This document shows, in pieces, positions 34,328-63,564 of a stretch of DNA of 64,000 nucleotides (the stretch's first letter is position 1; the number at the start of each line of letters is the position of its first letter). Under the pieces are notes generated by a model. The model had not been told where the DNA came from. It searched no databases and saw only the letters and a list, made by a program, of their open reading frames with translations. The DNA is from Prochlorococcus sp. AG-347-J19 (GTDB taxonomy: Bacteria; Cyanobacteriota; Cyanobacteriia; PCC-6307; Cyanobiaceae), in the NCBI GenBank assembly GCA_003279015.1, contig QCBV01000003.1, positions 62,001 through 126,000 on the forward strand, written 5' to 3'. The translations under genes were made by a program, and so were the position numbers.

Positions 34328-34463
34328 TATAAAAAAATTATCCTTAAGTAAAAATAACTAGTCACAGTATCCATCGTGGATTAAAGAGCAAAAGTCGCAC
34401 CTAAATAAGTATTTATACTTACTTACTTAAATGAGTTATTTTCTGATTAGGAATTCAACTAAG

Positions 34464-54680: not shown

Positions 54681-54765
54681 AATCTCTTATATATCTTATT
54701 TATTAATAGCAATTATTTGAATTTTTAAAACTTCTTTTAGTCAAAATCTAAAATTTTTAATGAAA

Positions 54766-54797
54766 AGAGTCAGCCTGTATCCCTACTAGCTGACTCT
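54766..54797. terminator. Hairpin, probable terminator on the minus strand
   Basis: AGAGTCAGC (54766-54774) pairs perfectly with GCTGACTCT (54789-54797). On the minus strand TTTTC follows. No obvious gene lies immediately upstream on that strand, so it may end a short RNA. Confidence 0.5.
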
Positions 54798-54993
54798 TGC
54801 CTTTATCTTAATTAAAATAACTTTTTAATGAGGCTTTAACCCGAAAAATAAAAAAAGCTTATAACTTTTATTTCCCCTTCAAATTGGTAGATATTTGTAT
54901 CAAAAATATAATCAAAAATTGAGTATAAACTGATACAGATTTGTCGCATATTTGCAATTCATCGAAATATAACCGTAGATTCCCATATTTTTC

Positions 54994-55046: not shown

Positions 55047-55154
55047 ATGACTCCAGAAGCAGAACGTTTTAACGGTTGGGCAGCAATGCTAGGATTCGTT
55101 GCAGCGGTTGGTGCATATGTAACAACTGGCCAAATTATTCCAGGTTGGTTCTAA
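55047..55154 (+). CDS. hli: High-light-inducible protein (35 aa)
   Basis: Single-helix LHC-type domain: ERFNGWAAMLGFVAAVGAYV then TTGQIIPGWF. The E...N/R chlorophyll-binding residues (ERFNGW) are present. Protects photosystems in high light at the thylakoid membrane. Stop overlaps the next hli start (TAATG). Confidence 0.93.
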   Translation: MTPEAERFNGWAAMLGFVAAVGAYVTTGQIIPGWF

Positions 55155-55294
55155 TGAAAAAAATTGAACCAAAAACTGTAGAAAAAGAAAAAATAGTCGC
55201 TGAAAAACTTAACGGAAGATTTGCTATGTTAGGTTTTGTCGCACTAGTTGGAGCATACTTAACAACGGGTCAAATTATTCCAGGTTTTATTTAA
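55154..55294 (+). CDS. hli: High-light-inducible protein (46 aa)
   Basis: EKLNGRFAMLGFVALVGAYL then TTGQIIPGFI, with ExxNxR chlorophyll-binding motif intact. Starts on the last A of the upstream hli stop codon, so translation is very likely coupled. A terminator follows 21 bp on. Confidence 0.94.
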   Translation: MKKIEPKTVEKEKIVAEKLNGRFAMLGFVALVGAYLTTGQIIPGFI

Positions 55295-55892: not shown

Positions 55893-56099
55893 TTAAAAAA
55901 TTCCAGGTATTATCTGTCCCGTTGTTACATAAGCACCAATTAGTGCTACAAAACCTACCATTGCCCATCGACCATTTACTTTTTCAGCATTCTGAGGATA
56001 ACCATCATATGATACTGAGTCATCTATGTAAGGTCTAGTTTCAGATGGGAACATATTTTGCCTTCCGCCTGATTCTGTTGTTAATCCTGTATTTGACAT
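55893..56099 (-). CDS. hli: High-light-inducible protein (68 aa)
   Basis: Polar N-terminal half (SNTGLTTESGGRQNMF), then AEKVNGRWAMVGFVALIGAY and TTGQIIPGIF. ExxNxR motif present. Longer N-terminus than the two other hli products. An HLR1-like element lies 42-51 bp upstream. Confidence 0.94.
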   Translation of the reverse strand: MSNTGLTTESGGRQNMFPSETRPYIDDSVSYDGYPQNAEKVNGRWAMVGFVALIGAYVTTGQIIPGIF

Positions 56100-56150: not shown

Positions 56151-56326
56151 CCTGAAGAAGCAGCTATTAAGTTGAGAGAATTTTTAGATCAATTAATAAT
56201 ATCTTTGTATAGAAAATTTGTTGCTAAAAAATTTTAATTAAATATTCCCTTTGATCAAATCTGAGAGAAAATTACATAAATAAGTAATTATACTCACATT
56301 AAGTAATTTTACTTAGTAGAATAAGA

Positions 56327-56425
56327 AAGCATTTAGGAAGTGCTTAGCTGGTTAATCAGGAACTCTGAATTTAACCAAGTCGTCATGAGCTTGCCAGTGG
56401 GATACTTGTAAGCTCTTTTTATTTT
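56327..56425 (+). ncRNA. Candidate small RNA with three hairpins and terminator
   Basis: Stem 1 AAGCA/TGCTT (56327-56331 with 56341-56345). Stem 2 GGTTAATCAG (56351-56360) pairs with CTGA plus TTAACC (56365-56376) with a 2-nt bulge. Stem 3 GAGCTT/AAGCTC (56387-56415) is followed by TTTTTATTTTT. TAGAAT about 10 bp before stem 1 could be a -10 box. No protein-size frame fits. The T-tail fixes the plus strand. Confidence 0.65.
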
Positions 56426-56543
56426 TAAGGTCAGTGGAAAGTAATACCTAATAGAAAAGCCTCTAAATATATTAAAACCATGCAATCGAACAAATGTTAA
56501 AATTTTTTTTTTTTGCTAAATATAAAATAGACAAAAAAAAAGT

Positions 56544-62270: not shown

Positions 62271-62349
62271 ATACATCAAATAAAGAATACATAGTAACTA
62301 TTCCTTTTTTAGATAACCATTTCTCCTTTTTTGCTAAGTAATTTGATTT

Positions 62350-62424
62350 TCATGTAAAAATAAAAACTTTAGACAGACTAACGCCAATATCTAAAGCTAA
62401 TAAAGCAATTAGTAACTTACTCAT
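62350..62424 (-). CDS. Possible micro-protein (24 aa)
   Basis: MSKLLIALLALDIGVSLSKV with hydrophobic core. Its ATG overlaps the TGA of an 18-codon frame ending at 62421 (ATGA). Low confidence. Confidence 0.25.
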   Translation of the reverse strand: MSKLLIALLALDIGVSLSKVFIFT

Positions 62425-62477
62425 TTTTTAGAACTCTCAACTATTTTTTTGTAAAGTTCTTCTGAAATAGGTTTCAT

Positions 62478-62763
62478 AACCTTTTAAAATCTAATTACAA
62501 ATTAGTTATTTTAAAATTAATTTCTCGTTACTAAATATACGAATATATGAATTTTTAAATAGGCAAAAAATATCTTCACAATAAGTTTTTCTTATAACGT
62601 ATTAATAAATACTTAATCCAAAAACCTCTATAAATGTCAAAACTTTTTTAAAAAAGAAATAAGAAATATTATTTCAAGTAAATAGATCCTCTATAAGTAA
62701 GCTTTATCAACTTTTCTTCTTGTTTTCTACAATATACGAATGACTTTCCATTAAAATACATGT
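62478..62763. other. Gene-poor spacer before structured RNA
   Basis: AT-rich, no convincing open frame. A possible -10 (TAAAAT) lies near its right end before the structured segment. Confidence 0.4.
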
Positions 62764-62773
62764 TTACCATGTT

Positions 62774-62876
62774 GCAGCTCCTAAACTTGCTCAAGTCCCC
62801 GTCCTATGGCTTGAGTCGTACTGCGGTCTATCAAATGGTAGATCGGACGATTTTGTAGTATTCACTACAATCTATT
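62774..62876 (+). ncRNA. Candidate structured RNA with loop-linker tertiary pairing
   Basis: GCAG/CTGC (62774-62777 with 62821-62824) encloses CTCAAG/CTTGAG (62790-62795 with 62810-62815). Next GGTCTATC/GGTAGATC (62825-62844) with AAAT loop, linker GGACG (62845-62849), and TTGTAGT/ACTACAA (62853-62870). Linker GGACG complements CGTCC in the first loop (62800-62804). Three G-U pairs are valid only on the plus strand. Clearly higher GC than its surroundings. Confidence 0.6.
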
Positions 62877-62879
62877 TAT

Positions 62880-63378
62880 AAAGTATTTATACTTAGATGT
62901 CAACAATTAATAGAAACTATACTTCAATTTAAAATTAGATTCTGCTCTCAGAAACTCCCTAAAAAGAATATAAAACATATAACTACGAGTAACTCCCATA
63001 AAAACTGAAACAAATGCCAGAACCACACAAATAGGGCAATGCGGGAATCCCATTATTTATTTTCCAAAATAAATTTCAATTCAGCCTCTGCATTAAGAAT
63101 ATCGATTCTTCTCTTAAGTAATTTAAAAAATTTAATTATTTTTTTCAAAATTAAACCTTCTTTAGGCATCATTAATAATATTATTCTAAGAATGAATATA
63201 TCAATGAGCAAAAATACTGAATCCATTGATATAACAATAGTTTTGTAGCAAAATTATACAATTAACAACACCAACATATTCTCATATAATCTTAATCAAT
63301 AAAGGCTAATTCAGAATCAAATATAATAACTGGTGACTTATTTACCTTGCAGTTCTATTTTTCTTTTGCTAGAAAATT
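62880..63378. other. Gene-poor spacer
   Basis: About 500 bp, AT-rich. A 69-codon frame (63039-63248) exists but has odd composition. No clear gene. Confidence 0.4.
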
Positions 63379-63430
63379 GAGCGGGTAAAGTCCATTACTC
63401 CAGGAGGATTTAGTCCGCTGCCAAAATCCT
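63379..63430 (+). ncRNA. Candidate H-type pseudoknot
   Basis: AGCGG (63380-63384) pairs with CCGCT (63415-63419), and AGGATTT (63405-63411) pairs with AAATCCT (63424-63430); the stems cross. A G-U extension is valid on the plus strand. May be part of a leader upstream of 63565 or 63831, or a separate RNA. Confidence 0.45.
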
Positions 63431-63564
63431 GAGAGTGCAAATTTCTGAGTTAATAATATGCAACTATGCTTTGTAAGGGAAATATCTTGATTGCTTAATA
63501 AATTTATTTTGTATATTGCTATTACAAAAACTATTAGTTTATTTAAATTAGTTGCTAAATACTC

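Follow-up and report, generated by a model that had tools for sequence, protein, structure and literature searches.

Background

Yfr20 was described in 2008 in Prochlorococcus MED4 by Steglich et al. as an abundant RNA of 89 nucleotides, whose 5' end was determined via 5'RACE (PMC2518516; statements on this and the other papers cited below hold for the accessible part of their text). In MED4 it lies in genomic island 5, less than 2 kb from hli11 and hli12, and is made from its own promoter, while a dicistronic transcript also joins it to an ORF upstream. No other ncRNA examined in that study rose when cells were moved from darkness into high light. Yfr20 was assigned a low RNA-class probability of 0.14, and was listed with homologs from MIT9515 and MIT9312 only (PMC2518516). 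A decay value of 2.0 min is given for it in PMC2897979, where the functions of Yfr1 to Yfr21 are stated as unknown. The accessible text of the literature naming Yfr20 (PMC2518516, PMC2897979) yielded no target for it. Likewise, beyond the psbA and psbD contained in a Yfr2 pull-down, no psbD-targeting sRNA of Prochlorococcus was found in the accessible text of a literature set which includes PMC6778093, PMC3441193, PMC2663038, PMC5082946, PMC7368042, PMC5069720 and PMC8136909, and which lies mostly outside the subscription journals.

The Yfr1/Yfr10 and Yfr2 families are, as far as the available sources go, likewise small RNAs of this organism with one exposed motif common to several genes; the Yfr1/Yfr10 motif in the accessible text of PMC2518516 differs from the blocks described below, and Rfam matched neither Yfr1 nor Yfr2, whether in the window or at the scanned hli-end loci. 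A functional parallel is offered by ApcZ of Synechocystis 6803, an sRNA derived from the 3' end of the apcABC operon, in which the 3' RNA of a light-related operon acts on how a partner gene of photosynthesis is translated. With ApcZ, antenna genes are coupled to ocp, whereas here one module, probably directed to psbD, is common to hli operons and a stand-alone RNA; the two are likened by function only, and the hli 3' ends, seen here as sequence, would have to be released to form comparable RNAs.

The window analyzed here is a stretch of 64,000 nucleotides of Prochlorococcus sp. AG-347-J19 (contig QCBV01000003.1, positions 62,001 to 126,000) and carries Yfr20 itself. Beyond what is published, we find that 106 of the 151 genomes examined from the genus carry this RNA and that hli operons, too, end in its 3' module. 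Yfr20 has thus been known since 2008; the recurrence of its module and the match to psbD are newly noted here, neither having been found in the literature searched. On balance, we favor the view that Yfr20 and the hli-operon 3' ends constitute a family of psbD-targeting RNAs, which probably repress D2 translation under light stress.

Identity and architecture of the Yfr20 locus

The original prediction, made from the sequence of the window, described a small RNA of three stems next to hli genes. Comparison with the known Yfr RNAs identifies it as Yfr20, with a covariance match to RF02367 of 78.8 bits against a gathering score of 44, covering model positions 1-89 of 89 (Table 1). The genome has a single copy of it, hli-type ORFs lie less than 1.5 kb from it in the window, and one genome of our collection has Yfr20 exactly at the published MED4 coordinates (1336435-1336523). 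The full-length match, the common genus, the hli neighbors and the 5' end and length as published in the MED4 genome mark this as the same RNA. The accompanying hint at stress expression, drawn from the proximity of hli genes, was right, since Yfr20 of MED4 is the sole ncRNA of the 2008 study raised on the dark-to-high-light shift (PMC2518516).

Table 1. Coordinates of Yfr20 and associated features in the window
Feature	Position	Strand	Basis
Class E module copy, GTCAGCTAGTAGGGATACAGGCTGAC and T run, without TCGTCATGA	54763-54806	-	R1, 42.3 bits, E 4.7e-8
hli-type ORFs of 35 aa and about 46 aa, upstream of Yfr20	55047-55294	+	sequence motif only; 35-aa ORF without Pfam match
hli gene, 68 aa, divergent from Yfr20	55893-56099	-	Chloroa_b-bind, E 8.5e-4, 20.3 bits, below Pfam cut-off of 22.3
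Two inverted repeats, TAAGTAATTATACTCA and TAAGTAATTTTACTTA, candidate operator	56281-56315	+	strongly conserved upstream of Yfr20
-10-like TAGAAT	56317-56322	+	sequence; TA..AT pattern conserved in 61-locus alignment
Yfr20 small RNA	56327-56414	+	RF02367, full-model covariance match
Hairpin 1	56327-56345	+	fold, alignments
Hairpin 2, 10 bp with 2-nt bulge and closing pairs; more variable in family	56347-56380	+	fold, family fold
Block 1, TCGTCATGA	56380-56388	+	complementary to psbD start codon region (UCAUGACGA); mostly unpaired in fold
Hairpin 3, terminator hairpin; stem covaries (Yfr20 and hli-operon 3' ends)	56387-56415	+	fold, covariance model R1
Block 2, GGGATAC, in loop	56399-56405	+	complementary to GUAUCCC in psbD leader
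Terminator T tract, TTTTTATTTTT	56416-56426	+	sequence

Positions 56327-56425 of the forward strand fold into three successive stems. The MFE is -29.8 kcal/mol, with a z of -2.60; of 200 dinucleotide shuffles of this segment, 3 gave equally or more stable folds. The stems comprise 8 bp, then 10 bp (6+4) with a 2-nt bulge and weak closing pairs, and a third with an outer helix of 8 bp, which agrees with the predicted three-stem layout and its bulged 10-bp middle stem. To speak of a perfect terminator, as had been done, was somewhat strong: fold and sequence do reveal a third hairpin followed by TTTTTATTTTT (56387-56426), but a simple scan for terminator-like sites returned none between 55000 and 58000, its loops being limited to 3-8 nt and that of hairpin 3 being longer, and the T run is broken in many relatives (e.g. 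TCTTTCAATTTT). The expected -10-like TAGAAT is present, ending four bases before the first base of Yfr20, though paired with a weak -35 element (9 of 12 in all), and the promoter region is conserved in sequence in the 61-locus alignment. As had also been stated, no forward-strand ORF of at least 30 aa intervenes between the divergent hli gene and 56327. The possibility of a longer transcript reading from an upstream gene, which had been set against an independent RNA, is realized in MED4, where co-transcription with the upstream ORF produces such a transcript besides the 89-nt one; the latter, with its own promoter, exists as well (PMC2518516). A small ORF within Yfr20, starting from a GTG at hairpin 1, was rejected on account of single-base length differences and an early in-frame stop in at least one relative (L022).

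Palindromes of the TAAGTATTTATACTTA type, possibly the operator of some regulator, occur in the window at 56281-56315, 34406-34421 and 62880-62895, one lying about 28 nt upstream of a glutamine-II riboswitch (62790-62852, reverse strand, 59.3 bits) and another between two genes. Near matches to TAAGTAATTTTACTTA number 21 in the window (three places being counted on both strands) against 6.9 expected, and 0 of 100 shuffles reach 21. There is no ORF of at least 50 aa directly downstream of the riboswitch on the same strand within 62300-63500. No promoter common to Yfr20 and the hli operons was found: in the 464 kb of own sequence, a 24-nt pattern taken from upstream of Yfr20 and allowed at most 5 mismatches had no site other than Yfr20.

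Conservation of Yfr20

A search of 151 genomes from the genus finds Yfr20 in 111 at E <= 0.001 and in 106 above the curated score; of those at least 90% complete, 48/52 have a match. In a family-wide draw it was recovered from 16 of 251 genomes, all belonging to one genus of 59, which we call high-light on the ground that MED4 belongs to it. Alignment of 61 loci (60 whole) shows strong conservation of the upstream inverted repeats, of a 5' stretch, GCATTTAGGAAGTGCTTAGCTGGTTAA, and of the 3' module. The 5' stretch (56329-56355, forward strand), which runs from hairpin 1 on, is the longest conserved part of the RNA, and psbD does not explain it. Within the 3' module TCGTCATGA is exact at 57 of the 61 loci and altered at four (L049, L051, L063, L071); GGGATA or GGGATG is present at 56 (GGGATA alone at 49), one of the five misses being truncated. 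MED4-like copies have GGGATG, in which one G-U maintains the pairing with UAUCCC. A family fold of whole Yfr20 from 36 sequences retains the three hairpins with 22 pairs. Just 3 of these pairs show two-sided changes, so that Yfr20 alone provides little covariation, and the covariation suggested as a check on the RNA emerges instead in the stem of the 3' module across Yfr20 and the hli-operon ends.

A shared 3' module at the ends of hli operons

The module consists of UCGUCAUGA, a hairpin presenting GGGAUA in its loop and a run of U's. Its recurrence is apparent from the second, weaker matches of the Yfr20 search, of which the 15 inspected lie at the ends of other transcripts; in 10/15 of these loci Yfr19 (RF02366) is convergent with the module. 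Yfr19, which faces the class B hli-operon module, is encoded on the opposite strand and belongs to a different family, and we claim no kinship. In the own genome, the exact pattern TCGTCATGAN{4,24}GGGATA has three matches and its reversed control none; the three are Yfr20, the 3' end of an hli operon (class B) and the antisense of the psbD start. The class B module closes an operon of hli genes followed by a 59-aa ORF, and the modules of classes C and D likewise end hli operons. Across the genus the exact pattern occurs in 145/151 genomes, psbD antisense and modules taken together, against 7 matches of the reversed pattern in the same 151. Block 1 begins 14-16 nt past the stop codon of an open frame in all 13 class B-D loci read (13/13); from this distance and the hli genes upstream, these modules sit at the 3' end of the mRNA and share its terminator.

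A covariance model of the module (R1), which matches the window's Yfr20 at 56377-56419 with 59.1 bits, finds it in 144/151 genomes of the genus and in 52/52 of the good ones. Across the family it matches 10 of 201 genomes, all within the genus; no module was found in other genera among these 201, large draws being subject to stricter filters. We classified 80 R1 loci, taken from the best matches, of which one was clipped, and the 79 readable ones comprise 21 Yfr20 loci, 5 of class E and 53 others. An hli ORF lies on the same strand less than about 1.1 kb upstream at 51/53 of these others, being absent at two (L284, L288). Among the same 79 best matches, TCGTCATGA is exact in 66 and GGGATA in 74. 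The hli genes were named by a sequence motif, by weak Chloroa_b-bind matches below the Pfam cut-off (two proteins) and by DNA identity to phage; NCBIfam gave no match above cut-off for the hli proteins. The motif concerned, NGRxAMxG, is one that we take to be the mark of hli proteins. The class C operon has 77.5-84.7% DNA identity to phage regions, several of them annotated as hli (among the 20 records listed).

Candidate viral copies of the module were sought and rejected: in at least 120 viral stretches picked by motif R1 scored no higher than 21.5 bits (E 0.015), followed by 21.1 bits (E 0.036), values which we take as chance, the weakest match among those listed for the genus being 24.8 bits and most exceeding 40. 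R1 found no module in the hli-psbD region of phage P-HM1 either.

The class E copy lies about 1.5 kb from Yfr20 on the opposite strand, and its sequence was read in the own genome and four others; in 15 of 18 genomes, R1 has a match on the opposite strand less than 5 kb from Yfr20. As no convincing ORF precedes it, this copy may end an antisense or small RNA, which may start at the divergent hli promoter.

Aligning 40 modules of classes A-D, we evaluated the 8-pair stem against 500 shuffles. It is standard-paired in 99.3% of cells, with 35 cells changed on both sides, and none of the shuffles (0/500) reaches its pairing, two-sided cell count or covariation score. Two-sided change affects 6 of the stem pairs, which 52/500 shuffles attain, and there are 13 further pair types, attained by 20/500; versions of the stem slid out of register drop to 30.7-49.3% paired. 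While the stem covaries, the exposed blocks vary little over the same 40 modules, an invariance that is biased in classes B-D, whose members were found by the exact pattern, the Yfr20 members having been found without it.

Complementarity of the module to the psbD start region

The own psbD gene (TIGR01152, 708 bits) has GUAUCCC-N17-CUCAUGACGA in its start region, in which AUG is the start codon. Both of its blocks are the reverse complement of the two exposed blocks of the module, in the order needed for an antiparallel duplex: block 1, UCGUCAUGA(G), faces the translation start CUCAUGACGA, and GGGAUA(C) faces GUAUCCC, 21-27 nt upstream of the start codon. We ranked predicted duplexes against the starts of 438 mechanically called ORFs of at least 70 aa, each taken at its 5'-most ATG, some surely wrong; they come from the window and a further 400 kb, 464 kb of own sequence altogether. 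By RNAduplex energies, which leave out unfolding costs, psbD comes out on top of the 438 with five module sequences, which represent four classes: A_own (-34.5 kcal/mol; next start -32.5; 1/1000 sRNA dinucleotide shuffles as good), B_own (-38.7; next -27.3; 0/1000), A_MED4 (-40.2; next -31.6; 0/1000), C (-31.1; next -27.1; 0/1000) and D (-38.5; next -28.7; 0/1000). The margin for the window's own Yfr20 module is thus small, only 2 kcal/mol, and, as the five modules share ancestry and the genomes are related, neither makes up a set of independent tests. For class E, which is without block 1, psbD ranks 19 and 61/1000 shuffles are as good; with full-length Yfr20 as query it ranks 4/438.

Within the same sample, TATCCC less than 50 nt before the start is seen at psbD only (1/438), and two other genes have an ATGACGA start. 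The looser target pattern TATCCCN{3,30}TCATGA has 8 places in the own genome, namely Yfr20, class B, psbD and 5 further ones. From 80 psbD loci fetched, two without a start were dropped, and both blocks are present in 76/78 of the remainder; in the closest 74 the blocks are exact in all 74 and the spacer in 54. No compensatory change between psbD and the modules was found, psbD hardly varying. Folded in isolation, the psbD start region is predicted to have its blocks about half paired (0.41 and 0.47), and GUAUCCC might lie outside the psbD mRNA. Taking these predictions together, we consider it likely that the base-pairing of the module with psbD is real.

The psbD element is older than the sRNA, being present in psbD of other genera, while the R1 module was found in one genus only. 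In other genera 17 genomes match the exact pattern, and the 5 inspected comprise 4 psbD genes and one locus (L113) that is neither psbD nor module. Conservation at psbD by itself is therefore no evidence of regulation by Yfr20, and, R1 having found no module outside the genus, the element has another cause as well. Codon 2 of psbD is ACG in 78/78 loci (outgroups and near-identical sequences included) against 10 of 1477 other Thr codons, which suggests a constraint at the RNA level on the start that predates Yfr20.

Eight cyanophage psbD genes have a different leader and other first codons, and both blocks are absent. With the same three module sequences, energies run from -11.4 to -20.0 kcal/mol at phage psbD starts and from -31.5 to -39.2 at host starts. 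The absence of the site from phage psbD may simply reflect phage ribosome sites, and we do not count it in favor of psbD targeting. Seven of the phage proteins, from Prochlorococcus phages (L425-L431), are 95-96% identical to that of the host and begin MVAST..., and that of S-PM2 (L432), 83% identical to the host's, begins MTSST.

Alternative explanations

The module could be merely a terminator that works efficiently and was carried along as hli cassettes duplicated, its match to psbD being coincidental. The hli cassettes are indeed multi-copy, phages have related hli genes, all module classes look like descendants of one sequence, and class E retains the hairpin without block 1. However, a terminator has no need of a near-invariant 9-nt linear block and a fixed loop while its stem drifts; the reversed pattern occurs about 0.05 times per genome (7 in 151), the psbD match itself being one event inherited by relatives; and what comes out first of 438 is a photosystem gene (-38.7 versus -27.3 for B_own). 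We regard this explanation as unlikely. The conserved 5' part of Yfr20 invites a different reading, fairly doubtful in our estimate, in which it directs the RNA to another mRNA as its main target, with psbD minor or absent. This would account for GCATTTAGGAAGTGCTTAGCTGGTTAA, which is the longest conserved part and is left unexplained by psbD, and for the fourth place of psbD with full-length Yfr20; against it, the 3' module is common to hli operon ends, where the 5' part is not seen, and so seems to have a function of its own.

Two further readings concern what the exposed blocks do. Pairing could be real with the opposite effect, the RNAs stabilizing or activating psbD mRNA, or psbD mRNA acting on the hli 3' ends as a sponge or decay control. 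Some cyanobacterial antisense RNAs protect their targets, which would fit such an effect, but the predicted duplex would lie over the start codon itself, as is usual for repression. We find an opposite effect distinctly improbable, even counting against repression that psbD mRNA increases in light and that some hli genes track daily photosynthetic capacity (PMC2663038). Alternatively, loop and linear block might be sites for an RNA-binding protein and no pairing seed. Those class E copies that were read retain the GGGAUA loop and have no block 1, and Hfq is absent from MED4 (PMC2518516), both of which speak for such sites; this reading nevertheless gives no reason to expect that the two blocks would match a single start codon region by complementarity, with order and polarity correct, and appears very improbable.

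Functional implications

In the favored reading of Yfr20 and the hli-operon ends as psbD-targeting RNAs, we infer that the pairing takes place in cells, that its effect is repressive and that the hli 3' ends are released as separate RNAs. High light would then induce Yfr20 from its own promoter, as reported in print, and the hli operons too; the two blocks of the module would pair with the psbD start and the GUAUCCC upstream; and the duplex over the start codon would block ribosome loading and thereby lower D2 synthesis, so that D1-only repair and photoprotection would be favored over the assembly of new PSII. More tentatively, these elements may form a dispersed RNA regulon, in which one two-seed RNA, common to the ends of stand-alone Yfr20 and of several hli operons, silences psbD translation, and which phage copies of psbD escape. 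The making of photoprotective proteins would thus automatically brake D2 synthesis in high-light Prochlorococcus, and cyanophage psbD, by its different leader and first codons, would evade silencing. In the light, hli genes and psbA of the host increase in the course of infection (PMC5082946).

If psbD is the target, the ends of stress operons would tie photoprotection to reaction-centre synthesis in a dominant photosynthesizer of the ocean. This would represent RNA control in an organism with few regulatory proteins and, according to the accessible text of PMC2518516, no Hfq, and it would offer a reason for phage psbD genes carrying a start region of their own.
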